Assembly: GCF_016765695.1 (NCBI RefSeq)
Contig: NZ_JAETGO010000086.1
Coordinates: 1-52,178, forward strand
From: Sporosalibacterium faouarense
Lineage (GTDB): Bacteria; Bacillota; Clostridia; Tissierellales; VENL01
Reading direction: 5' to 3'
DNA: 52,178 nt
Numbering within the stretch: position 1 is the stretch's first letter; each line of letters opens with the position of its first letter. The notes under the pieces were generated by a model. It saw only the letters and a list, made by a program, of their open reading frames with translations. It made no database searches and was not told where the DNA came from. This document shows, piece after piece, positions 1 to 11,269 of this stretch. The position numbers and the translations under genes were made by a program.

Positions 1-285
1 ATTGAAAAATTGAAATATAAATCCAATATTTCTTCTTCTAAAAATAGATAATTCTTTTTCTGGCAGGTCTACTATATTTCTATCATTTATATAGACTCTA
101 CCATTGCTAGGTGTATCAAGTCCTGCTAATAAATGCAGTAGCGTACTTTTACCAGAGCCACTGGGACCTACTACAGCAACAAACTCACCTTTTTCTATTT
201 TTAGTTCTGCATCCTTTAATGCATGTACCTGAGTATCACCTTCTCCATATTTTTTATTTAACTCATAGACTTCTAAAATACTCAA
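1..285 (-). CDS. MacB/LolD-type ABC transporter ATP-binding protein, 3' end outside the window
   Basis: Only the first 95 codons are present; the rest lies beyond base 1. The start is TTG at 285, six bases after a GGGGGGA ribosome binding site; no ATG fits. Visible are an N-terminal beta strand with an A-loop Tyr (KKYGEG), the Walker A motif GPSGSGKST near residue 40-48, and the start of the Q-loop (FIFQFFN). This arrangement is typical of the MacB/LolD/FtsE-like ATPases that pair with a FtsX-type permease. Such pumps move peptides, antibiotics or lipoproteins, and clostridial RiPP loci often carry one for self-protection. Whether it belongs to the adjacent RiPP locus is not shown: a separate promoter-like sequence precedes it. 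Confidence 0.85.
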
Positions 286-476: not shown

Positions 477-493
477 ATTATATGCCAGTAAAT
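477..493 (+). repeat. Left arm of a 17-bp perfect inverted repeat flanking the precursor gene
   Basis: ATTATATGCCAGTAAAT reads on the plus strand here and on the minus strand at 791-807. The pair brackets the CXXX-repeat precursor gene. Outside the 17 bases the match stops at once. It could be a regulatory site present in two orientations or the ends of a small mobile or recombining cassette. Confidence 0.8.
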
Positions 494-543
494 CTACTTT
501 CTAAACTAACTAGATAAAAATATTATGATATAACGTTTTATTT

Positions 544-735
544 CTAACTCACTACGAAGTGTCCGCATCCTCCAACACATGTGCTAGAGCAACTATCCAT
601 ACACTCGGCATCACAAGTATCTTTGCATGTACCAATACAAAGTGAATCGCATCCTCCCATACACTGCTCAGGACATATATAGCCTTTTACATCATTTCTT
701 GATTTGCTTTCTTTTCTGTTTAAAAATTGTCTCAT
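544..735 (-). CDS. CXXX-repeat RiPP precursor peptide, ten cysteines at four-residue spacing
   Basis: The 63-residue product has a charged, Cys-free leader of about 20 residues (MRQFLNRKES...), then cysteines at 21, 25, 29, 33, 37, 41, 45, 49, 53 and 57, every one exactly four residues after the last. A short tail GHFVVS follows. This strict C-X3 periodicity is the hallmark of the 'CXXX repeat' radical SAM targets, thought to be natural-product precursors. The neighbouring fused radical SAM/SPASM maturase and small accessory protein fit that family. An AAAGGGG ribosome binding site lies about 12 bases before the ATG. By inference, cysteine thiols are joined to carbons of other residues (thioether crosslinks), the leader is removed by the adjacent protease, and the product is exported. 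A metallothionein-like role is less likely given the context. Confidence 0.85.
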   Translation of the reverse strand: MRQFLNRKESKSRNDVKGYICPEQCMGGCDSLCIGTCKDTCDAECMDSCSSTCVGGCGHFVVS

Positions 736-790
736 TAATAATTCAACCCCTTTAATTTAATTAGAATTTATCTGAAATAATATTTAAGAT

Positions 791-807
791 ATTTACTGGC
801 ATATAAT
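791..807 (-). repeat. Right arm of the 17-bp inverted repeat, in the precursor promoter region
   Basis: The minus strand reads ATTATATGCCAGTAAAT, identical to 477-493 on the plus strand. It lies 56 bases upstream of the precursor start, between the accessory gene and the precursor, where a dedicated promoter for the precursor would be expected. A TTGTGG sequence just before it could be a -35 box, but no strong -10 is visible. Confidence 0.75.
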
Positions 808-842
808 AACCACAATTTATTAGTAAAAACAGCAATGATATA

Positions 843-1133
843 TTAGCCTTTTAAAATTATTTTATTTGTATTAAAATCTATTTCCCATACTCCATTTTTT
901 ACTTTTTTCCAAGAATATTTTTCTGACTTTTCTCTCCACCAAGTTGATAAATTTTCTTTATTTTTAGTGTACTCTTCTTCTACTTTCTTCCTAAGCTTGT
1001 CCCTTTCCTTTTCATTTAACCCTTCATTCTCAAGTGTCAATGCAACTTCTTCTAACGCTATCTTTCTTTCAAACAATCTTAATATCTCGTATTTTTCTTC
1101 TTCTAATACTTCACCTACCAATTCTTTTTCCAT
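843..1133 (-). CDS. Small accessory protein of the CXXX-repeat peptide modification system
   Basis: The 96-residue protein is highly charged and mostly helical (VGEVLEEEKYEILRLFERKIALEEVALTL), with an aromatic C-terminal part rich in Trp (STWWREKSEKYSWKKVKNGVWEIDF). It has no signal peptide or membrane segment. In known CXXX-repeat loci a short protein of about this size sits beside the radical SAM gene ('CXXX repeat peptide modification system protein'), and this one resembles it in length, position and sequence feel. Its AAAGGAGG ribosome binding site overlaps the last codons of the maturase gene, so the two are very likely translationally linked. A role in precursor recognition or delivery to the maturase is inference. 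Confidence 0.65.
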   Translation of the reverse strand: MEKELVGEVLEEEKYEILRLFERKIALEEVALTLENEGLNEKERDKLRKKVEEEYTKNKENLSTWWREKSEKYSWKKVKNGVWEIDFNTNKIILKG

Positions 1134-1135
1134 TT

Positions 1136-3274
1136 CTATGCCTCCTTTTTGTTTCTTATAATCTTTTCTAATGGATCTAAATAATCAATTTTAGGAATTT
1201 TATCTACAGAAGATAAAAGTCTTCTCTCTATTAATCTCTGTTGCAATTCTCTAGTTATATTTCTTTCTATATGACTTATCACACATTGTATTTTAGAAGG
1301 TGTGTTTATTTCTTTAGTTAACTTCTCATTAAGAAATTTACATCTCATACAATGATAAGCATCACACTCTGAACAAATTGGAGCATTAGATAATTTGAAT
1401 AAGTGGTCATTTTTTACCTTAATTCCAGTTTCTAAATCTCCAATATTGTTTTCAGGTTCATCAAAGTAAAAAGCTGGACATATGTATAACTTACCATTTG
1501 GTGCAAGAGCAATACTATTTACTCCTGCTTCACATCCATAGTGTTCATTTAAATTCAGCCTGTCAGTCAAGATATTAATTGATAGGTATGTTCCATTTTC
1601 ATAAGACTCAATAACTAGCTGCGAAACTTGTCTGAGCTGATCTTCATATTCATTAATATCTTCTAACTCCCACTTTTCTACGTCCTGTAAAACAATGTTT
1701 ATTCTTTTTTTACGATTAAGTTCTTCAATAAACTTATATATTTTAACAATATTTTTTTTAGAAATAAGTATTGTTGCAATATCACTACTGTTACTCGTGT
1801 CGGCAACTTCATTATTGTATATGGTGATATTATTTTTTGAAGAAGTTTTATCTTTAGAGTCTAATATAAATATATTATTAGGATAGTTTTCTTCTAAATT
1901 TCCATCTTGATTTCCTAAAAAAACAGGAGTATAGTGATTATCTCTAGCAAACTTAAGTCCTTTCTCAATTAATTTTTTACTCATACTTTCCTTAGTTTTA
2001 AAATTGTTTCTATAATTACAATGTGGCGTGATGCTATTCCCAGTAATAAACTGTAAATAATGCACTCCTAGTTTTTCTTCTCTTATCTCTCGTCTAGGAG
2101 ATTTTTTACCAGTAGCTTCTTCGTATTTTTGCCAAAAATATTCACACGCTCTAACATTGGCTTTATGCATTTTACATAAATAAGTAGCTCTTTGATATAC
2201 AGTATCTGTTTCAGCTACATCATAGTTAAATCCAGAGCACCATGCACAACCTGTTCCAACTTCACAGTTTATACACTCTTGACTACTTTGATTCTCAAGG
2301 TTCAGTCCCCAAAATCGTCTCTGCAAATCTTCGTTTATACCATGGTCTACATCTCCGATGCATAATCCCACTTTATTCATCAAAGTAAAATCTAAGAATC
2401 TAATACATGGGTAATATCTACCCTCGCAATCAACTGCTAGCATGTGACCTGCTCCACAAAAATTATCTTTCTTTAATTCTTTATCAAGAGGAAAACCAAT
2501 TCTAGGATTAAAAAAACGAACCGAATAGTCGTTCCATAATTCATTATCTATTACATAATCTGCTAACTCCATTAACTGATTTTCAAATATTTCATCGTCT
2601 CCTTCTTCCCATATATCTTCAAAGACAACATTAGCAGATACCCATTTAATTCCTAAATTCCATAAACTAATTATGCTATCTTTTAAATGTGGCAAATCAT
2701 CATGGGCAAAAGTGGCTTTTGTTTGAACATCTCCAAATTGTTCCATCCATAAAGGTACATTTTTAACTACATCATCATATGAACCTTTACCATTTGGATA
2801 TACTCTTTGTAAATCATGCTTAACTCTATTCCCATCTACACTTATATTGACACTTATATGACCTTTATTCTTCCTAATGTATTTTTGTACCTTAGGTGTA
2901 TTATAAAGTAACCCATTTGTAGAAAATGAAAATCTATAATTATTAAAACTAGGGTGGTCTAGAATCAACATTTGTTGTTTGATGTAATCACTTACTTTAT
3001 CTATTAAATCAATTTCTAGAAATGGCTCTCCTCCTATAAAATCCCATACGATTGCATTATCTCTAAATTCTTCTCTGTCATTCAGAATATAATCAACCGC
3101 CTTTTTGGCCACTTCAAATGTCATTCTTTTTCTTTTATTCTTGTGCTCCATATAACAGTATTTACAAGCTAAATTACAGTCTTCTGTAACACAAAATGTT
3201 ACACTCCTTGTTTTTTTTCCATTACCATTCCATTGAGGTGATAAATTCCCCATATTAGTACTATTTACTCCCAT
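1136..3274 (-). CDS. Fused radical SAM/SPASM peptide maturase for the CXXX-repeat precursor
   Basis: The 712-residue protein has two modules. Module 1 is a radical SAM/SPASM enzyme: the [4Fe-4S] motif C33-X3-C37-X2-C40, GGEP at 81-84, then a SPASM cysteine set at C273, C283, C290, C334, C337, C343, C346 and C367. Module 2 (about 400-712) has no CX3CX2C motif but carries a second SPASM-like set: C581, C599, C634, C637, C642, C645, C664. In CXXX-repeat systems a radical SAM 'maturase' and a separate 'CXXX repeat peptide maturase' are normally encoded by two genes; here they look joined in one chain. The start ATG overlaps the protease gene end by 10 bp and follows GGGGGAG at good spacing. The expected job is thiol-to-carbon crosslinking in the precursor, in the cytoplasm. 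Confidence 0.85.
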   Translation of the reverse strand: MGVNSTNMGNLSPQWNGNGKKTRSVTFCVTEDCNLACKYCYMEHKNKRKRMTFEVAKKAVDYILNDREEFRDNAIVWDFIGGEPFLEIDLIDKVSDYIKQQMLILDHPSFNNYRFSFSTNGLLYNTPKVQKYIRKNKGHISVNISVDGNRVKHDLQRVYPNGKGSYDDVVKNVPLWMEQFGDVQTKATFAHDDLPHLKDSIISLWNLGIKWVSANVVFEDIWEEGDDEIFENQLMELADYVIDNELWNDYSVRFFNPRIGFPLDKELKKDNFCGAGHMLAVDCEGRYYPCIRFLDFTLMNKVGLCIGDVDHGINEDLQRRFWGLNLENQSSQECINCEVGTGCAWCSGFNYDVAETDTVYQRATYLCKMHKANVRACEYFWQKYEEATGKKSPRREIREEKLGVHYLQFITGNSITPHCNYRNNFKTKESMSKKLIEKGLKFARDNHYTPVFLGNQDGNLEENYPNNIFILDSKDKTSSKNNITIYNNEVADTSNSSDIATILISKKNIVKIYKFIEELNRKKRINIVLQDVEKWELEDINEYEDQLRQVSQLVIESYENGTYLSINILTDRLNLNEHYGCEAGVNSIALAPNGKLYICPAFYFDEPENNIGDLETGIKVKNDHLFKLSNAPICSECDAYHCMRCKFLNEKLTKEINTPSKIQCVISHIERNITRELQQRLIERRLLSSVDKIPKIDYLDPLEKIIRNKKEA

Positions 3275-4002
3275 TGGTTACTCCCCCTTAATTGATTTTT
3301 ATTAATTAAACCTAAAGCTTTAAAGTGATTTCTAATTGGTTCCGATTTTAAATTTGGATATATTTCCATTAATCTACAAATATGTCCAGTAATATATGCA
3401 GCTGCAAAGCTATTTCCCTTAACTAATTTATTTCTTAATAGTTCTTGACCATTAATATTGGCTAGATATATAGGTGCATAAAACACTTTATTTCTATAAA
3501 AGAATTTTTCTTTGTCGTGAAGATTTATTGCACCAGCTACTCTTATCACATTTTTGTCATTAGATGGATAACTATCATTCCCATTATTGCTCAGTGCGGT
3601 AACTACTATTATTCCTTTCCTTCTAGCCTTTTTCATCAATCTCTTTAATTTAAATTTATATCGTAATTTTTCTGTACCCAAACTAAGATGTATTATATCT
3701 GGATCTAATTTCATAGCTCTAATAAAAGAGCTAATTAGAATCCTTCCATCAGACAGTAATCTCTCATTAAGAATATTCATACTTATAAAATTGACACTTT
3801 TACATAAATCTTTAATGATCATGGCAATTATAGTACCATGTTCTGATGTTGTCTTTCTATCTTTTGATTCAATAATATTTGACCTACTATCTAATTTATA
3901 CATTAAGTGTGATTCTACACTATCACCTAAGTCGCAAAACTCTGTATTAATCCCACTATCAATCAAAACTACCTTTATATTTTTTTTACTATGCTGTTTC
4001 AT
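3265..4002 (-). CDS. Short cytoplasmic subtilisin-like (S8) serine protease, probable leader peptidase
   Basis: The 245-residue protein retains the S8 catalytic triad: D15 (VLIDSGIN), H55 (SEHGTII) and S198 (KGNSFAAAY), with Asn139/Asn140 near the oxyanion-hole position. It has no signal peptide and no pro-domain, and it is shorter than usual subtilases (about 270-400 residues), so it should act inside the cell. The gene overlaps the ABC transporter gene upstream by 14 bp and the maturase gene downstream by 10 bp, indicating tight co-translation. The natural inference is that it cuts the leader off the modified CXXX-repeat peptide before export. The exporter lacks its own C39 protease domain, which supports a separate protease. 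An alternative is processing of the pheromone. Confidence 0.8.
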   Translation of the reverse strand: MKQHSKKNIKVVLIDSGINTEFCDLGDSVESHLMYKLDSRSNIIESKDRKTTSEHGTIIAMIIKDLCKSVNFISMNILNERLLSDGRILISSFIRAMKLDPDIIHLSLGTEKLRYKFKLKRLMKKARRKGIIVVTALSNNGNDSYPSNDKNVIRVAGAINLHDKEKFFYRNKVFYAPIYLANINGQELLRNKLVKGNSFAAAYITGHICRLMEIYPNLKSEPIRNHFKALGLINKNQLRGSNQWE

Positions 4003-5776
4003 TTTTATCCGACCTATTCTCAGTATTATTTATGCTTAAATCAGATTCATATAGTCTCTGATATAAGTCGCAATGTTCCAACAAGTAATAATGATCCCCT
4101 TTATCTACTAGTCTTCCATTATTCATTACACATATTTCATCTGCATCTATTACAGTTGATAATCTATGTGCAATTATTACGACTGTTCTATTTAAAGATA
4201 AATTTTTAATTGCTTTCTTTATAAAATATTGCGACTCATTGTCCAAACTGGAAGTTGCTTCATCAAATAGAATAATTCTAGAATCCTTAAGTAACCCTCT
4301 TGCTATAGCTATCCTTTGTTTCTGCCCTCCAGAAAGATTAACACCATTTTCTCCTATAATTGTTTCATATTTATTGGGAAGGGCCATTATAAAATCATGT
4401 ATGTATGCACATTTACACGCCTGAATTATTTCATTTTCACTTGCCTCCTTCTTAACCAACAAGAGATTTTCCTTAATTGACATATTAAATAGAAAAGGTT
4501 CTTGTCTTACAATAGAAATACAATCTCTTAAACTTTTTTCACTAAATTCATTTATTTCAATATCATTAACTAGAATTCTCCCTTGTTGAACTGGATAAAG
4601 TTTAAGTAATAAATTAAAAATAGTACTTTTCCCAGCCCCACTTCTACCTACAATGGCAATTGTCTCATTATGCTGTATGTGAAGACTAAAGTCATTGATT
4701 ACCTTTTTCTCATTATTATAGGCAAAGCTAATATAATTAAATTTTATATCTCCCTTCTTCACATATACTTCTTTGTTTCCAAACCGCTCTGGTTTATATA
4801 AAACATCGTCTAATAAATCGAATATCCTCTCTAATGATGATAACAATCGTTGTAATATAGAGTTTAGTTGAGTTATATTTTTTAAGGAATTCGCAAATCT
4901 TGTTCCATATGATACTAAAATTACAAATTCTTCAATTGTTAACTCTCCTCTTGCCACTAAATTACCACTGACTAATAATAAAGCAATTGCTGACAAGAAA
5001 GACGAAAATCTAGCAAAAGAATTGGAAATCTCTGAAATCACATTAACACGTATAGTTTTTTCCTTAAGAGTGTGAGAAATATTATGGAATTTCTTTAATG
5101 CTTGTCCCTTTATGCCTAAACTTTTCAATTCTCTTATAGCAAACAATGACTGTTGCATAGTACTAAAATATAAATCACTTATTTCACGTAGTTCTTTATT
5201 TTTTTTTCTTAGTATTTTACCAAAATAATTAAAAATCAAATAAGATAAAGGAAATATAACAATTGATGTTAATGCAACTATTGCATTTATTTTAAGTATA
5301 ATTATCCCTATAATGATTACATTTATTAAATCTATAATAGTATTTAAAAATTGATTCGTAATAATATTTGATATGACTCCAGTATCTCCATTAATTCTAG
5401 AAAGAAAATCTCCTATCCTCATCTCATCAAATGCTTTTACTGGAAGATTAATTACTTTCCTAAATAATTCAATCCTAATGTCATTAATTAAATTATTATT
5501 TACATTTGCAAATGTGCACTTTCTAATAAAATTTATTGCAATTTCTAAAATCTTTATTCCACTAAAAATTGCAATTATAGTAATTAAATAATCATATTTT
5601 TTATCCAAGAAACTTGTGGTAATCCTACCAATAATAAGAGGTTGAATAAGCCCAAGAGACATTCCTAAAATTATACATATAACTAAAAACGTAAACTTCC
5701 AAATATATGGCTTAACATATAATACAGAACGGATTATTAATTTCTTATCTCGCTTATTAAAAGCATTAAATTTCAT
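3989..5776 (-). CDS. ABC exporter (fused permease and ATPase), probable peptide exporter
   Basis: The 595-residue half-transporter has an N-terminal six-helix membrane domain (about residues 20-310) and a C-terminal nucleotide-binding domain. It shows Walker A GRSGAGKS (377-384), Q-loop Gln425, signature LSGGQ (481-485) and Walker B IILFDEAT (501-508). It matches the MsbA/LmrA-type length, without the N-terminal C39 bacteriocin-processing peptidase seen in some exporters. It is the first long gene of the minus-strand operon, after the pre-pheromone gene. Its product likely exports the mature CXXX peptide, and could also export something else, since the pheromone has its own signal sequence. 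Function as an ABC exporter is secure; the substrate is inferred from the operon. Confidence 0.9.
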   Translation of the reverse strand: MKFNAFNKRDKKLIIRSVLYVKPYIWKFTFLVICIILGMSLGLIQPLIIGRITTSFLDKKYDYLITIIAIFSGIKILEIAINFIRKCTFANVNNNLINDIRIELFRKVINLPVKAFDEMRIGDFLSRINGDTGVISNIITNQFLNTIIDLINVIIIGIIILKINAIVALTSIVIFPLSYLIFNYFGKILRKKNKELREISDLYFSTMQQSLFAIRELKSLGIKGQALKKFHNISHTLKEKTIRVNVISEISNSFARFSSFLSAIALLLVSGNLVARGELTIEEFVILVSYGTRFANSLKNITQLNSILQRLLSSLERIFDLLDDVLYKPERFGNKEVYVKKGDIKFNYISFAYNNEKKVINDFSLHIQHNETIAIVGRSGAGKSTIFNLLLKLYPVQQGRILVNDIEINEFSEKSLRDCISIVRQEPFLFNMSIKENLLLVKKEASENEIIQACKCAYIHDFIMALPNKYETIIGENGVNLSGGQKQRIAIARGLLKDSRIILFDEATSSLDNESQYFIKKAIKNLSLNRTVVIIAHRLSTVIDADEICVMNNGRLVDKGDHYYLLEHCDLYQRLYESDLSINNTENRSDKNETA

Positions 5777-5885
5777 ATAATGATCTCCTTAATGTAACCC
5801 TCATTCTTGTTATAAAATTTTATTTACTCACTATTAAGTGTCTATCAGCTAAGAACCTATTAAAAGTTACTGACTCCTTTTTATT

Positions 5886-6032
5886 CTAAGTGTTTTGCAT
5901 TATTATACAGTTACGTATAGGCGGCCTTTCATCTTCGCTCGCAAAAGAAAATACAGTAAATAGACAAAGTATCCAGATTATTATAATTGCAACTGAATAC
6001 TTAAAAATTTTTTGAAAATAAAATTTTTTCAC
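5886..6032 (-). CDS. Candidate pre-pheromone (Phr/PapR-like signal peptide) for the adjacent RRNPP regulator
   Basis: The 48-residue product starts at GTG 6032, preceded by GGAAGGGATGGG at suitable spacing; an in-frame ATG at 6041 is possible but sits directly on the ribosome binding site. The sequence begins with Lys-Lys, has a hydrophobic core (SVAIIIIWILCLFTVF), then FSFA, a signal-peptidase-like site, leaving a tail of about 17 residues, SEDERPPIRNCIIMQNT. This is the layout of Phr, PapR and NprX pre-pheromones, which are secreted, trimmed and re-imported to bind a TPR regulator encoded next door. It lies 109 bases upstream of the ABC exporter gene on the same strand and opposite an XRE-TPR regulator. 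The active peptide is probably a C-terminal piece, but this cannot be read from the sequence. Confidence 0.72.
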   Translation of the reverse strand: MKKFYFQKIFKYSVAIIIIWILCLFTVFSFASEDERPPIRNCIIMQNT

Positions 6033-6070
6033 TATTCCCATCCCTTCCGTCAATTATTTTTACTATCTGG

Positions 6071-6085
6071 GTAAATTTAACTTAC
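6071..6085. promoter_or_regulatory. Operator-like dyad at the pre-pheromone operon promoter
   Basis: GTAAATTTAACTTAC has half-sites GTAAAT and GTAAGT (reverse complement of ACTTAC). It starts six bases after the -10 box of the minus-strand promoter. It matches the perfect dyad at 6228-6242 in length, spacing and half-site, so both are candidate binding sites for the XRE-TPR regulator. Confidence 0.65.
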
Positions 6086-6091
6086 AATAAT

Positions 6092-6120
6092 ATTTTACAT
6101 TCTATAACTTGTATGTTCAA
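6092..6120 (-). promoter_or_regulatory. Promoter of the pre-pheromone/exporter/RiPP operon
   Basis: On the minus strand TTGAAC (6115-6120) and TAAAAT (6092-6097) are separated by exactly 17 bases. Transcription would begin within the dyad at 6071-6085 and reach the pheromone start at 6032 after a leader of about 50 bases. Confidence 0.65.
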
Positions 6121-6193
6121 TAAGAAATCTTCGACTTATTCTCGATTATTTCTTTTGTATTCGACAAATATTTTACAATTGTCAAAAAAACAT

Positions 6194-6222
6194 TTGCCTT
6201 CGTACTAAAAATTTGATATTAT
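6194..6222 (+). promoter_or_regulatory. Promoter of the XRE-TPR regulator gene
   Basis: TTGCCT (6194-6199) and TATTAT (6217-6222) are separated by 17 bases. The predicted start site falls inside the perfect dyad at 6228-6242. Confidence 0.6.
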
Positions 6223-6227
6223 TTTAG

Positions 6228-6242
6228 GTAAATACGATTTAC
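6228..6242. promoter_or_regulatory. Operator-like perfect dyad at the regulator promoter
   Basis: GTAAATACGATTTAC is a perfect GTAAAT-N3-ATTTAC inverted repeat. It begins five bases after the -10 box of the regulator promoter, mirroring the site at 6071-6085 on the divergent promoter. Confidence 0.65.
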
Positions 6243-6262
6243 TTCATAGGAGAGATAAATTT

Positions 6263-7558
6263 ATGAAAAAACTCACTTTGGGTGAAAAAGTAAGAAATGC
6301 TAGGTTAGAAAAAAACCTTACACAACAAGAGGTAGTAGAGGGTTTTATAACTCGAAATATGCTAAGTCAAATTGAGAATAATGTCGCTCGCCCTTCTTTT
6401 AAGACAATAGAATTTCTTTCAAAGCGATTAAATAAACCTCTATCATATTTTCTAGATGATTTATATGAGGATAAACTCCACAATGAAAAAAGTTGTAGAT
6501 TAGCTTTTCAACACTCCTGTTTTTTAATAAAAAATGAAGAATATAAAAAATGTACTGATTACATAAATAAATTAATAGAGACTAATCAATGTGATTATGA
6601 TGTTTATTATGCTAGACTATTATACAATCTTGCTAATTGTTATATAAACGTGGACAGTATCTCTACTTCATATAAATTATTAAAAGAATCCATAAATTTA
6701 TTAATTAATTATGAAGACCATTACTATATGTCCAAATCATATTATGACCTTAGCTTTATATACCATACACGAAAACAATTTTCATATTCTGAGGATTGTC
6801 TAAACGAAGCAATATCTTTTTTAGATAAATCGCATGTAAATGATACGTTGCTTGAACTGAAACTATACTATAGTCTTGGATATGCATTATTCGAAGAACA
6901 TAAGTATCATGAAGCGATTATTCAACTTCAACACTCACTTAAACTCTCTCAAAATTCCAAGTGTTACTACAATAATGGTAAAACTAATATGCTGTTAGGA
7001 CTTATTTACAAACAGCTAAGAGATTTTAAAAATGCAATATATCATACTAAAAGGGCAATTCACTTTTTTAAATTTACTGAAGACTATTTCTTAATGGCTT
7101 CATGCCAAAAAAATCTAGGAAATATACTAATCTTAGACAATCAGCTTGAATCAGCTAATAATATTTTACATGAAGCTTTAGAGTATTTTTTAAAAAAAGA
7201 TATACTAGATAAAGCTAGTGCAATAAAATCAGACTTGCTTAGTATTTTATTGAAAAAAGAAAAATTTGAAGATGCAATAAAATTCTTTAACACAATAGAT
7301 ATTACAACCCTTAGCCACTCTGATAAAAGCAGTTTGCTAAATAATGTTGGGAAATGTTATTTAGAGTTAAATGATTTTAATAAAGCTAATGCTTTCCTTG
7401 ATCAAGCTTTTAAATTGGCAAAAGATACTAAAGATAACCACATAATATATAGTGTATATAATAATCTGGCAGATTATCATTCTAAAACCAATGATTTTCA
7501 AAGTGCTTATTCTTACTCAAGCAAAGCACAAGAGATTCTAAAACATATTTATAATTAA
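6263..7558 (+). CDS. XRE-family HTH plus TPR regulator (RRNPP type), putative peptide-responsive switch
   Basis: The 431-residue protein begins with an XRE helix-turn-helix (about residues 6-65; LGEKVRNARLEKNLTQQEV...MLSQIENN), followed by a long all-helical region of tetratricopeptide-like repeats (about 75-430; e.g. YYDLSFIYHTRKQFSYSEDCLNEAI, YNNLADYHSKTNDFQSAYSYSSKA). This is the architecture of PlcR, NprR and related RRNPP sensors that bind small imported peptides. It is transcribed divergently from the RiPP operon and from the 48-codon pre-pheromone gene, and its promoter has a dyad shared with that operon. The start ATG follows AGGAGAG at normal spacing. Activator versus repressor cannot be told, but sites overlapping both predicted start points favour repression relieved (or changed) by the peptide. 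Confidence 0.88.
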   Translation: MKKLTLGEKVRNARLEKNLTQQEVVEGFITRNMLSQIENNVARPSFKTIEFLSKRLNKPLSYFLDDLYEDKLHNEKSCRLAFQHSCFLIKNEEYKKCTDYINKLIETNQCDYDVYYARLLYNLANCYINVDSISTSYKLLKESINLLINYEDHYYMSKSYYDLSFIYHTRKQFSYSEDCLNEAISFLDKSHVNDTLLELKLYYSLGYALFEEHKYHEAIIQLQHSLKLSQNSKCYYNNGKTNMLLGLIYKQLRDFKNAIYHTKRAIHFFKFTEDYFLMASCQKNLGNILILDNQLESANNILHEALEYFLKKDILDKASAIKSDLLSILLKKEKFEDAIKFFNTIDITTLSHSDKSSLLNNVGKCYLELNDFNKANAFLDQAFKLAKDTKDNHIIYSVYNNLADYHSKTNDFQSAYSYSSKAQEILKHIYN

Positions 7559-7815: not shown

Positions 7816-8421
7816 CTATACGAAAGGAATCATCCTATTAAGAATACCATCTTCGGGAATTAAGTCTTGGATATCATATATTGGAATTAGGAAATATGGA
7901 AATCCAACATAGTATGGAGAAATTTCAACTTGTTGGAAGTATATTACTAAACCCTTATCTGCAATATAATAATCCTGATTTGGTTTTATTCCTTTAAACT
8001 CACCTAATAGTGGTATATCTCTTTCCTTAATTTGCTTTGCTATCATATCAGATAATACCTTTACATAGTCACTACCTTTTTTAAATAGTTCACTCAATTG
8101 ATAGATTTCTCCAGTTCTAGTATCGGCAGTAAGAGATTTAACAATAGTTACTGGATGAGCACCGTGGAAATCCCCTAATCCGTTCAAAGTTAAACTTAGA
8201 ACATTTCTTTGGTTATTTTTTATTTCATAAGACCCTGTTATATAAGTTATCATATCTGGCTGTCTAAGTTCTGCAATAAGCTTATACATCATATTTTGAA
8301 TATTATAGTTGATGTGCTTTTGAACACTTGGATCTTCTAATCCATATACAAATGGATAATACATATTAACTGTTGGTGTAAAATAAGAATTGGTTTTAAT
8401 ATATACTGGCAATGTCAACAT
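7816..8421 (-). CDS. DUF3298-type (RsiV-like) protein
   Basis: The 201-residue protein resembles the DUF4163/DUF3298 pair found in the extracellular part of the anti-sigma factor RsiV and in many clostridial proteins of unknown role. Supporting segments are NVLSLTLNGLGDFHGAHPVTIVKSLTADTRTG, LSELFKKGSDYVKVLSDMIAKQI and YYIADKGLVIYFQQVEISPYYVGFPYFLIP. Unlike RsiV it has no signal peptide or membrane helix, so it is probably cytoplasmic or part of the spore. The start ATG follows an AGGAGG sequence. It is the last gene of the minus-strand TetR/ABC cluster, 74 bases after the permease, and may or may not serve in that system. Confidence 0.65.
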   Translation of the reverse strand: MLTLPVYIKTNSYFTPTVNMYYPFVYGLEDPSVQKHINYNIQNMMYKLIAELRQPDMITYITGSYEIKNNQRNVLSLTLNGLGDFHGAHPVTIVKSLTADTRTGEIYQLSELFKKGSDYVKVLSDMIAKQIKERDIPLLGEFKGIKPNQDYYIADKGLVIYFQQVEISPYYVGFPYFLIPIYDIQDLIPEDGILNRMIPFV

Positions 8422-8495: not shown

Positions 8496-9218
8496 CTATA
8501 TCTTTGCTCGTTCTAAGAAAATCTTATATATAATTAGATTCAAAGCGAGTACATATATTAATCCAATAAAGTAATATTGATTATAAGATAATAGTAATAC
8601 ATCACTGCCCCTTATTATACTACTTATAGCTTTAGCTGGCCAAAATCCAGGAGCAAAAGAAAATAGAAGTTCCTTCTTATCAATGAAGAATAAAGCTATT
8701 ATTGGAAATATAATTATTGCTCCAGTTCCCTTCATTATTGCAAATCCCTCAATCTTATTTTTCGCCAATGCATTAATCAGTAAACCCGACATAGGCGATG
8801 CCAGTGAAGCTAATAGAGAAATTGCAATTATGGCTCCAGCTGAGAAACTCCAAATATCCGAGAACCACATTACAAATGCACATGCAACCCATGATAATAT
8901 TAATCCCATTATAAGTCTAAAGGATAGAAACTGATGTATGGTTAAAGGAGTAACTTTTATAGATGTTAGTATTTTATCGTCCCTATCATCTAAAATCGAA
9001 AATCCAATTAGCGCTCCAAAGATTATAGGTGTCATCAATGTTAACACAACGACTATTATATCTGCATATTGTTCAATATTAAATCCACTATTCTTCGCAA
9101 TATATGGCAAAAGAAATCTTCCTATTATGGCTAATATTATGGGGTAAAACAACATAAATTTCATTAGTGGATCTCTACTCCATTTTTTGAATTCACTTAA
9201 TACAAAACTACTATTCAT
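8496..9218 (-). CDS. ABC-2 type transporter permease (second subunit)
   Basis: The 240-residue integral membrane protein has about six hydrophobic helices and an N-terminal cytoplasmic segment (FVLSEFKKWSRDPLMKFMLFYPIILAIIG) typical of ABC-2 permeases. The loop ...GFSILDDRDDKILTSIKVTPLTIHQFL is the usual cytosolic coupling region. It begins two bases after the other permease gene ends, so both are co-translated with the ATPase gene. Two unlike permeases plus one ATPase form an exporter of unknown substrate, probably a drug or peptide given the TetR regulator upstream. Confidence 0.85.
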   Translation of the reverse strand: MNSSFVLSEFKKWSRDPLMKFMLFYPIILAIIGRFLLPYIAKNSGFNIEQYADIIVVVLTLMTPIIFGALIGFSILDDRDDKILTSIKVTPLTIHQFLSFRLIMGLILSWVACAFVMWFSDIWSFSAGAIIAISLLASLASPMSGLLINALAKNKIEGFAIMKGTGAIIIFPIIALFFIDKKELLFSFAPGFWPAKAISSIIRGSDVLLLSYNQYYFIGLIYVLALNLIIYKIFLERAKI

Positions 9219-9220
9219 AA

Positions 9221-9946
9221 TTAAACCCCACTTTCTTTAACAGCAAATTTATCGAACTTTTTCGATACAAAATAGTAAATTACTACTGATCCTAAAATCA
9301 TGTAAGCTGTAGAGAGTAAAATACTCCAAATGTCAATCCCACCTGCCGATGACTTTAACAACACCATAGCACTTTTGCTTGGTATTATATAAAGGATTTT
9401 TCCTATTAACTCGCTCTTGATTATTCCAACTTCCTGTAATAAAACAGGGATCATAAATACAAAGCTATACTTTAACATTCCCATTAATAACCCTGTAAAA
9501 TCCTTTGAATAATAAGTCAATATAAACCCTATTAAAGAGTGAAAAAAGCCAATTAATATCACTGCAGAAAAAATCCCTAAAACATTGATATCAATTTCTT
9601 TAAATATTCTAGCATAAGCATATAGAATTCCTAAAGTAATAATGTTTGATACAACATTTGAAAACACTTTTGCAAGTATATATTCATTTTTATTAATTGG
9701 TGATATCAATAATGATTTAAGAGTCCCTTCCTGTTTTTCAAAAAACATAGAAACTCCAACTAAAAGCATTGACATTGATGTTGCATCTAAAAATATTAGC
9801 AAAGGAAAAATATTACTTACATTTTCAATTTCAGTAAAATGTAGTACTCCTATCCAAATAATCGAAACTAATAAACTAGCTCCTAAGATATTATACTTTT
9901 TCATTCTTTGTATTTCACCAGTCAATAAGACAAGAAAATTATTCAT
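9221..9946 (-). CDS. ABC-2 type transporter permease (first subunit)
   Basis: The 241-residue protein has about six membrane helices. It has the ABC-2 coupling segment (MFFEKQEGTLKSLLISPINKNEYILAKVF) between helices 2 and 3. Its start overlaps the end of the ATPase gene by 8 bp, a sign of translational coupling. With its neighbour it would form a heterodimeric permease. The substrate is unknown. Confidence 0.85.
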   Translation of the reverse strand: MNNFLVLLTGEIQRMKKYNILGASLLVSIIWIGVLHFTEIENVSNIFPLLIFLDATSMSMLLVGVSMFFEKQEGTLKSLLISPINKNEYILAKVFSNVVSNIITLGILYAYARIFKEIDINVLGIFSAVILIGFFHSLIGFILTYYSKDFTGLLMGMLKYSFVFMIPVLLQEVGIIKSELIGKILYIIPSKSAMVLLKSSAGGIDIWSILLSTAYMILGSVVIYYFVSKKFDKFAVKESGV

Positions 9947-10793
9947 CTTTTCCCACTCCTGTCACATTAATAAAGATATCATCAAGGGTAGTCTCCTTGC
10001 TATGAATAGTAATTATCTTTTTTTCTTTAATGATATTCAAAAATTCTTCATCTGCTCCTAAACTATCTAAATCAAATGATGCCTTTTCTGTACTTCCATC
10101 CTCTGCATATTCTAAATCTACAACTCTTTGACCATGCTTTAACTTAAGGTTCTTAGGTGAATCAATTTCTGCTATCTGACCATCGGCCAAGAAAGCTACT
10201 CTATCACATAATTCATCTACATCATTCATGAGGTGAGTTGTTAATAATACAGTTCCTCCATTATCCTTAAAATCTTTTATTATATCCTTAACCACCCTTG
10301 CATTCTTAGGGTCTAATCCGCTTGTGGGTTCATCTAAGAAAAGAACCTTAGGATTATTAAGAAGAGCCCTAACGAAGTTTAACCTTACCTTCATACCCTT
10401 TGAATACTCATTAACCTGTTTATCTTTATCCTCATAAAGTCCTACTTTTTTTAACAGTTCATCAGTATCAGCGTTAGATTTATATAGTTTTTTAAAGAAA
10501 GTTAGATTTTCGTTTGCTGTTAACTTTGAGAAATGTACTGGCATTTCAAAGCCAACTCCTATCTCTTGATAAAACTCTTTTTTGTATTCTTTTAAATCTT
10601 TATCCTTATACTTTATTTCTCCACTGTAATTATCAAGTAGCTTTGTCAAAATCTTTTGTGTTGTACTCTTTCCAACTCCACTAGGACCTAATAATCCAAA
10701 AATTTCTCCTTCCTTGATTTCAAATGTTAATCCCTTTAGAGTATCTACTTTGTTCTTTGGATATCTAAAAGTTAAATCCTTGACCTTAAACAT
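9939..10793 (-). CDS. ABC transporter ATP-binding protein of an ABC-2 exporter
   Basis: The 284-residue ATPase shows Walker A GPSGVGKST, signature YSKGMKVRL (replacing LSGGQ, as is common in drug-type ABC-2 ATPases) and Walker B VLFLDEPTSGLD. It also has a C-terminal extension of about 70 residues (from VDLEYAEDG), as in drug-export ATPases such as DrrA/BcrA types. It is followed by two permease genes in the same operon. The TetR regulator upstream suggests induction by the exported compound. Confidence 0.9.
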   Translation of the reverse strand: MFKVKDLTFRYPKNKVDTLKGLTFEIKEGEIFGLLGPSGVGKSTTQKILTKLLDNYSGEIKYKDKDLKEYKKEFYQEIGVGFEMPVHFSKLTANENLTFFKKLYKSNADTDELLKKVGLYEDKDKQVNEYSKGMKVRLNFVRALLNNPKVLFLDEPTSGLDPKNARVVKDIIKDFKDNGGTVLLTTHLMNDVDELCDRVAFLADGQIAEIDSPKNLKLKHGQRVVDLEYAEDGSTEKASFDLDSLGADEEFLNIIKEKKIITIHSKETTLDDIFINVTGVGKDE

Positions 10794-10867
10794 TTTTTTA
10801 CCCCCTTCATTTTGAGATGATTCATTAATTTACTGGTTTAGTTAAGAAATCTACTCTTTAATTTAAA

Positions 10868-11269
10868 CTAATACAAAAAGATACCAAGTAAAATTAAAAT
10901 TATTCCTAAAATAGTTGTTCCAATGCTAATCTGAGTAATAATTCTCCTATCCTCAACTAATGCTTTTGTAACAAAACTTCTAAACTTATTATAATTAAAT
11001 AAAATTTGTGACACCTTTATAAGTGTGAGAGTTATTAATATACTTAATATTATTGATAAATGTACCTCAGTAGTTATTTCTTTATACCATGTAACTATAA
11101 CTATAAAGATTGAGAATATCCCAACTCCCCATATCCATTTAGGTTTTTCCTCTGAATATGCCTTATTAAGTTCGAAATTGCTCCACTTTTCTGGTATTAA
11201 ATGTATTAGTAACCTTACTCCAATCATTATTACCCCCCATACAATACTTAATATTTTAAAGTAATTCAT
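10868..11269 (-). CDS. Four-helix membrane protein of unknown function
   Basis: The 133-residue protein has about four hydrophobic helices and a short charged loop (PEKWSNFELNKAYSEEKPKWIW). I do not recognise the family. It sits between the TetR gene and the ABC ATPase gene, 78 and 74 bases from them, on the same strand, so it is probably part of the exporter operon. GAGGGGG precedes the ATG by about nine bases. It may assist transport or resistance, but nothing in the sequence shows how. Confidence 0.7.
   Translation of the reverse strand: MNYFKILSIVWGVIMIGVRLLIHLIPEKWSNFELNKAYSEEKPKWIWGVGIFSIFIVIVTWYKEITTEVHLSIILSILITLTLIKVSQILFNYNKFRSFVTKALVEDRRIITQISIGTTILGIILILLGIFLY

Follow-up and report, generated by a model that had tools for sequence, protein, structure and literature searches.

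A putative peptide-sensing switch before a CXXX-repeat peptide operon in Sporosalibacterium faouarense

The stretch of DNA analysed here (the window; 52,178 nucleotides of contig NZ_JAETGO010000086.1) belongs to the 4.12-Mb draft genome of Sporosalibacterium faouarense, order Tissierellales. It carries in one block an operon of the CXXX-repeat kind of ribosomally synthesised and post-translationally modified peptide (RiPP), with a radical S-adenosylmethionine (SAM) maturase, a short secreted peptide gene, and a divergent gene for an XRE-type helix-turn-helix (HTH) regulator with tetratricopeptide repeats (TPR). All seven genes listed for this block in an earlier note, made from the letters alone, were found in place, and the block as observed there is confirmed; its bound at 477 needs correction, being 67 bp beyond the precursor stop. 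The note also took the regulator/pheromone pair and the maturase genes to belong together, and proposed a neighbourhood comparison as the refuting test. The two are not conserved together: a comparable pair was found at one of 39 other CXXX loci, which speaks against a CXXX-linked pair. As a radical-SAM-type gene adjoins the switch in all five close relatives and only that one CXXX locus has a comparable layout, the switch is tied more to operons of the radical-SAM type than to CXXX ones. On balance we lean towards an unnamed subfamily, in which peptide-sensing repressors, pheromones with an E-x-P motif and a 15-bp operator of their own would form a portable on-switch for Tissierellales-type radical-SAM peptide operons, acting on the adjoining operon only and set before a CXXX-repeat operon in one lineage and before Clo7bot-like Cys-rich peptide operons in others. 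The new part is the switch; the CXXX half is of an already known kind.

The regulator, its peptide and its operator

The window's regulator scored over the Pfam cut-offs for HTH_3 and TPR_12, as the reading of a divergent XRE-TPR regulator would have it, and its 24 sequence matches in the PDB include PlcR (E-value = 2.8e-4), RapI and ComR. Among 248 genomes of the order, 13 (one of them the window's own) have a match at E = 1e-20. Five of these (G009, G027, G238, G234 and G235; loci L136-L140) are close (283-369 bits, 38-44% identity), and the six close regulators group together with 90/90 support in an 18-row tree; the other seven matches scored 81-99 bits. Wider searches, which were samples and not complete, gave three of 391 genomes for the class (E = 1e-35) and four of 398 for the phylum (E = 1e-30), the window's own being counted in each, and the other three phylum-sample regulators (27-29% identical) have no divergent E-x-P peptide. 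Relatives occur in four of 22 genomes of the family of G327, and the clade in none of the 11 of the family of G442. A phage origin of the switch was rejected, since at E = 1e-10 the regulator had no match among phage records and IMG/VR gave three weak matches over 69-103 residues. A plasmid origin was rejected as well: four plasmid records matched part of the regulator at 26-27% identity, and the one plasmid locus inspected, L163, has no E-x-P peptide beside its regulator homologue.

Each of the five close regulators faces a divergent open reading frame (ORF) of 42-53 aa, with a hydrophobic start followed by a short acidic-proline stretch containing E-x-P (SEDERPPIRN in the window, CDDEWPVYPN in L136, SDNEKPPILGG in L137, SDPEEPPILYG in L138, SDPEEPKLPKR in L139 and SEDEEPKLPKG in L140). 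In the window this short secreted peptide gene is present, and it probably starts at GTG 6032 (48 aa), behind GGAAGGGATGGG, rather than at TTG 6053 as first read. The motif was noted on the close loci first and the weaker homologues (31-34% identity; L158, L159, L167 and L166) were inspected afterwards; three of these four have tandem E-x-P cores (Table 1). A pheromone precursor would be expected to repeat its core in this way; an immunity or leader peptide would not. Genes named by eye as Lon-type proteases lie near the peptides of L158, L159 and L167. By eye, the peptide was seen at nine of the ten loci of both homologue groups, one being out of frame. A regular expression (basic residue near the start, hydrophobic window, E-x-P) that was written after the sequences had been seen passes at eight of these ten loci and at none of the 11 loci of lower-scoring regulators; its background is 37 of 12,770 short ORFs of all loci (the eight included) and four of 4,200 base-shuffled upstream regions.

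The palindrome GTRAATNNNATTYAC was found with at most one mismatch in all six close intergenic regions, exactly in five, its regulator-side copy being 16-40 nt before the assumed regulator start; further copies towards the peptide gene occur in three of the six (the window, L136 and L138). Altogether there are 10 sites, against a mean of 0.077 in dinucleotide shuffles and a count reached in none of 1,000 of them, a figure that somewhat overstates the evidence because the consensus was read off the same regions. In the window, the 6071-6085 site closely follows, in the direction of transcription, a promoter-like match (6120-6092) that would serve the peptide operon, and the 6228-6242 site lies between a TG-extended -10-like match of the regulator (6217-6222) and its ribosome binding site; in five of the six loci a -10-like hexamer (judged by eye) precedes the regulator-side site by 1-5 nt, a geometry of repression. 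The exact motif occurs once in the 4.12 Mb, at 6228-6242, and its reversed-pattern control eight times, so that the receptor seems to serve this locus alone; there was no sign of a wide regulon. The divergent E-x-P peptides, the tandem copies in relatives and the shared palindrome support the view that regulator and peptide are a genuine receptor/pheromone module, in which binding is a prediction from sequence.

Behind the peptide, at a distance of 42-646 nt, all five close loci have a radical-SAM-type gene. In L136-L138 this is a Clo7bot-like maturase (TIGR04334, 262-290 bits; cut-off 600), followed in L137 and L138 by a Cys-rich peptide of 67-79 aa and ABC (ATP-binding cassette) genes. In L139 and L140 it is a CcpM relative of 256-270 aa without the cluster cysteines of CxxxCxxC (TIGR04068, 71-89 bits; cut-off 500). 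It is odd to find a degenerate radical-SAM protein retained behind a pheromone-type switch. At L140 it is followed by an ATP-grasp ligase and two ABC exporters. At the loci of G327, G376 and G627, no RiPP genes were recognised among the ORFs read, no family-library scan having been made; the wider regulator family thus occurs apart from recognised RiPP genes too.

The 39 other CXXX loci were scanned with profiles built on the XRE part and on the full-length regulator. This count leaves out the TIGR04119-positive G081, G172, G093 and G090, the neighbourhood of G281, the loci L037 and L041, and those radical SAM loci from L038 to L088 that are more distant (L065 and L081 being counted); in L013, L021, L029, L149 and L155 the stretch stops near one side of the maturase, and L153 has fragments and no maturase ORF at E = 1e-40. 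No XRE or TPR profile match was found in 34 of the 39, and in L020, L033, L034 and L146 the matches are 0.8-7.6 kb off. At the remaining locus, L017, the ABC, subtilase, maturase and precursor genes are preceded by a secreted-type peptide of 49 aa (containing FGADQDIPWVRS) and a divergent XRE gene (258 aa). Its regulator is a different, shorter protein (HTH_3, 45.2 bits; no TPR match in Pfam). This pair was first spotted by eye, and L017 is itself in the XRE profile, so that the profile match is not independent evidence. Within L017:1-2041 the XRE gene ends near a gene named by eye as an IstB-like ATPase, and may therefore have been cut short by an insertion element.

The CXXX-repeat operon

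Between 6032 and 544 the minus strand carries, in this order, the genes for the secreted peptide, ABC exporter, subtilase, maturase, TIGR04116 protein and CXXX precursor, and the regulator gene is divergent from them (Table 1). The ABC and subtilase genes overlap by 14 nt (3989/4002) and the subtilase and maturase genes by 10 nt (3265/3274), the TIGR04116 gene begins 2 nt past the maturase stop (1133/1136), and gaps of 109 nt and 107 nt lie after the peptide gene and before the precursor gene, respectively. A ribosome binding site is recognisable by eye at each gene, weakly so at the subtilase.

Table 1. Positions of the main features in the window and at related loci
Feature	Locus	Position	Strand	Remarks
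CXXX-repeat precursor peptide	window	544-735	-	63 aa; leader approximately 1-20, followed by ten Cys, one every fourth residue
TIGR04116 CXXX modification system protein	window	843-1133	-	96 aa; profile match and predicted fold
CXXX-repeat peptide maturase	window	1136-3274	-	712 aa; radical SAM/SPASM (TIGR04115) fused to TIGR04119 domain
Subtilisin-like protease, QhpE-like, probably cytoplasmic	window	3265-4002	-	D15/H55/S198 kept
ABC exporter	window	3989-5776	-	595 aa; membrane and ATPase domains fused
Putative pheromone precursor	window	5886-6032	-	GTG start, 48 aa; signal-like sequence, then SEDERPPIRNCIIMQNT; E-x-P core
Operator-like site GTAAATTTAACTTAC	window	6071-6085		1 mismatch to GTRAATNNNATTYAC
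Operator-like palindrome GTAAATACGATTTAC	window	6228-6242		motif match before regulator
XRE HTH + TPR regulator, RRNPP-like receptor	window	6263-7558	+	431 aa
Clo7bot-like maturase	L137	7129-8862	-	faces regulator, peptide and operator of the window's kind
Clo7bot-like maturase	L138	7038-8710	-	faces regulator, peptide and operator of the window's kind
CcpM relative	L139	2535-3347	+	directly after peptide gene
CcpM relative	L140	7975-8745	-	directly after peptide gene
Tandem E-x-P precursor	L158 (G327)	8836-9015	-	2x ASVEFPDGPDS; divergent from XRE-TPR regulator
Tandem E-x-P precursor	L159 (G376)	10718-11002	+	4x YIELPGPIVDG; divergent from XRE-TPR regulator
Tandem E-x-P precursor	L167 (G627)	1158-1583	+	6x LASIEDPPG; divergent from XRE-TPR regulator

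Of the four NCBIfam profiles that the earlier note had proposed, three were matched over cut-off: TIGR04115 (555.9 bits; cut-off 350) and TIGR04119 (284.7; cut-off 150) by the maturase, and TIGR04116 (80.9; cut-off 50) by what the note had called a small accessory protein. The fourth, TIGR04114, was matched by the precursor below cut-off (18.6 of 20). The precursor does have the cysteines claimed for it, ten in a row at a spacing of exactly four (residues 21, 25 and so on to 57), and this run is not chance, because the next best among the 244 window ORFs of at least 30 aa is three. As it scored 28.8 bits for TIGR04118 (cut-off 35), it is not filed in that subfamily, whose cut-off is passed by the precursors of L010, L011 and L145, and not by those of L012, L033 and L017; when it is aligned with seven relatives, seven Cys columns are invariant. 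The maturase, described in the note as a fused double module, is indeed a fusion, but with one radical SAM core rather than two: its single CxxxCxxC is at residues 33-40, and the TIGR04119 half has more cysteines and no such motif. Many of the relatives found share the fusion; in L018, L030, L031 and L032 the halves are separate or out-of-frame ORFs. Against the model of the ranthipeptide maturase PapB it scored 227.4, below the cut-off of 340; in ranthipeptides, Cys is joined by a thioether to a beta or gamma carbon.

For the TIGR04116 protein the predicted fold is beta-alpha-alpha-beta-beta (predicted local distance difference test, pLDDT, 96), and in 20 sequences W66 is invariant and W65 nearly so. 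PqqD-like RiPP recognition elements have a beta3-alpha3 winged-helix topology; identity with them was rejected, since the predicted topology differs and, of the 265 PDB matches that Foldseek returned (E up to 10), not one reached E = 0.001.

The ABC exporter is present as claimed, and the subtilase, read in the note as cytoplasmic, has no N-terminal signal sequence by eye and keeps D15, H55, S198 and N139, invariant in seven aligned sequences (the window's included, the 159-aa ORF of L010 left out). It best resembles QhpE (100.1 bits, below the cut-off of 165). QhpE cleaves the leader of cross-linked QhpC in the cytoplasm, ABC export coming afterwards (PMC7876137). Because the protease is most QhpE-like and is accompanied by an exporter and a QhpD-related maturase, the same logic of leader cutting and then export is likely in the window. 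The profiles thus support the reading of a CXXX-repeat RiPP operon that includes an exporter and a protease; the RiPP kind in question is known but uncharacterised.

Of 249 genomes of the order, 13 exceed the TIGR04119 cut-off, the window's own being one of them. By maturase identity the closest relatives with a name are L010 of Maledivibacter halophilus (57%) and L011 of Clostridium zeae (54%); these two and L145 of G442 (55%) have ABC, subtilase, maturase, TIGR04116 and precursor genes in the window's order, the subtilase ORF of L010 being short (159 aa). The same five genes are arranged otherwise in L012 of Pseudobacteroides, L033 (precursor first) and L146 (ABC gene distant, on the other strand); the set of L017 is without a TIGR04116 gene found.

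Outside the operon, window 1-285 (minus strand) holds an incomplete gene, its 5' part only, that by eye is of the LolD/BceA-like ABC ATPase type. It lies 258 bp behind the CXXX precursor; it runs off the contig end, cut by the assembly, and is possibly a self-protection exporter. Behind the regulator, a separate unit on the same minus strand begins with a DUF3298/RsiV-like protein (7816-8421; NCBIfam/Pfam), and behind this gene 8496-10793 looks like an ABC-2 transporter made up of two permeases and an ATPase.

A model of the switch and its alternatives

We are fairly confident of an overall explanation in which a CXXX peptide is made, trimmed and exported, and a peptide-released XRE-TPR repressor switches the operon. 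The CXXX-repeat radical SAM maturase, together with the TIGR04116 protein, would modify a ribosomal peptide with ten cysteines; the QhpE-like subtilase would then cut off the leader in the cytoplasm, and the ABC exporter would carry the peptide out. From the enzyme family, the cross-links are likely thioethers, and the product is probably an antimicrobial or a signal. The signal-free receptor would occupy the two palindrome copies near the starts of both divergent promoters and repress both. The secreted peptide, presumably trimmed to a short piece around SEDERPPI, would build up outside and be re-imported by an oligopeptide permease; it would then release the receptor, and the operon, in which the peptide gene is first, would switch itself on.

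Besides the after-the-fact wording of the regular expression and of the operator consensus, several observations weigh against this model. The best PDB sequence matches of the regulator are designed and eukaryotic TPR proteins, ahead of RRNPP receptors, and its single-sequence model (pLDDT 48) lends no structural support to peptide binding. On the 18-row tree the peptide label requires three changes, not one. One 300-aa regulator (L160, G187) is 40% identical over 297 residues, yet low-scoring and without an E-x-P peptide, so that the groups cannot be told apart by identity alone. Nor is the peptide kept everywhere, as L166 (G626, 31%) has a decayed remnant only and in L137 the frame with the ribosome binding site stops in the signal region, before E-x-P; the L137 copy is broken or mis-assembled. 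One-mismatch operators are rarer in the genome than those of the reversed control (74 versus 139 positions), so that this locus stands out by the exact form only, and no operator with up to two mismatches was found in L158, L159, L167 or L017. Promoter-like matches in the region are not above shuffles (45 versus 54.6). The genome encodes eight oligopeptide-binding proteins (PF00496), but such proteins are widespread (11 of 14 controls) and say little.

The main rival to de-repression is the opposite sign, in which the peptide-bound receptor activates the peptide/RiPP operon and the regulator-side palindrome serves autoregulation only; we consider it possible but doubtful. Peptide-bound receptors activate in Rgg-SHP, where Rgg is a TPR receptor, and in PlcR-PapR, and divergent peptide and receptor genes are an Rgg-SHP layout; L138, in addition, has extra upstream sites on the peptide side, at positions 79 (one mismatch) and 105 (two mismatches) of 267. 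However, in the window each site follows closely on a -10-like hexamer, a position from which a bound protein usually blocks, and the data on QsrB, a clostridial receptor that has been tested, fit a repressor inactivated by its peptide (PMC7376267). The operator position and QsrB thus favour de-repression.

It is improbable, in our estimate, that the operon encodes the secreted peptide as a further product (a bacteriocin of small size, immunity peptide or leader) and that the XRE-TPR protein answers something else. Such a role would suit a gene that is first in the operon with the exporter next, and a window copy that contains a Cys, and receptor binding of the peptide is a prediction only; but the peptide tracks the regulator (nine of ten loci by eye, none of the 11 lower-scoring ones by the regular expression) and not the CXXX genes, and the tandem cores of G327, G376 and G627 stand where no RiPP genes were recognised among the ORFs read. 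Nor does it seem likely that switch and operon are accidental neighbours, the CXXX operon having a promoter of its own in the 109-bp gap before the ABC gene. A promoter-like match does lie there (5844-5817, 10 of 12), and 38 of the 39 other CXXX loci are without a comparable pair. Against this, promoter-like sites are no commoner than in shuffles, the five best-scoring regulators all face a radical-SAM-type gene behind the peptide, and L017 again joins an XRE gene and a peptide to a CXXX operon.

CXXX clusters may well be silent in culture. The piece around SEDERPPIRN, as the likely signal, can be synthesised, and would offer a direct route to inducing the cluster and isolating its product. 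The tandem-copy precursors of the relatives indicate the position of the mature signal, which is usually hard to find; and a cassette moving between radical-SAM operons would show a route by which these come under cell-density control.

Comparison with known systems

The earlier note held a pheromone-governed CXXX peptide to be undescribed. No report of one was found, but the principle of an RRNPP-controlled RiPP is known: 196 biosynthetic clusters, RiPPs being the most frequent, adjoin candidate RRNPP systems, among them seven from Clostridiaceae and one each from Peptoniphilaceae and Tissierellaceae (PMC10075063). The available text of that study is silent on an E-x-P subfamily or on CXXX clusters among its 196. 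Among the literature matches listed, mostly non-subscription papers, there was no description of a CXXX operon under RRNPP control, of the E-x-P/GTRAATNNNATTYAC subfamily or of a CXXX-repeat product, and no mention of Clo7bot, TIGR04115, TIGR04119 or the term CXXX repeat; the accessible parts of PMC12700828 and PMC7206700 have nothing on RRNPP control of CXXX operons. Both RRNPP and ranthipeptide occur in a sporulation review (PMC8102284) and in PMC8748961.

With the CXXX systems (TIGR04114/04115/04116/04117/04118/04119) the window shares a maturase, a TIGR04116 protein and a CXXX precursor in one operon; it adds a QhpE-like protease, common to a subset, and the regulator/pheromone pair, absent from 38 of the 39 others and different in L017. 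Like qhpD-E-F (PMC7876137), it combines, by prediction, a radical SAM thioether enzyme, a leader-removing cytoplasmic subtilisin and an ABC exporter, but it is under cut-off for QhpE, as said, and for QhpD (TIGR03906, 117.7 of 453), and has no dehydrogenase subunits.

On the side of the switch, the window resembles the RRNPP systems of PMC10075063 in having an HTH receptor and an adjacent short secreted propeptide beside a RiPP cluster; by sequence, the receptor is HTH + TPR and the propeptide is conserved, with L137, L166 and L160 as exceptions. In the clostridial Qsr/Qsp systems, the active heptapeptide is AEPTWGW, the Qsp genes lie downstream of the receptor gene, and the precursors have a conserved Leu, Pro and Trp near the C-terminus (PMC7376267). 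HTH + TPR receptors, secreted precursors, a Pro in the peptide and a receptor of probable repressor type are common to them and the window, but the window's peptide is divergent, with E-x-P soon after the signal and no Trp after it, and no plus-strand ORF of at least 30 aa starts between 7558 and 7881, where a Qsp-type gene would follow the receptor. Rgg/SHP control of streptococcal radical SAM RiPPs is published (PMC8092268). The window shares with it a short peptide, a radical SAM RiPP operon and, Rgg being a TPR receptor, the receptor type; the maturase and precursor classes of the window differ, and its regulator has no Rgg-family match in NCBIfam or Pfam at E up to 1. Clo7bot-type operons (TIGR04334) differ in the Cys-rich peptides linked to them in L137 and L138, which are not CXXX repeats, and the L136-L138 maturases are themselves under the family cut-off, yet it is in these operons that a maturase faces a regulator, a peptide and an operator of the window's kind.

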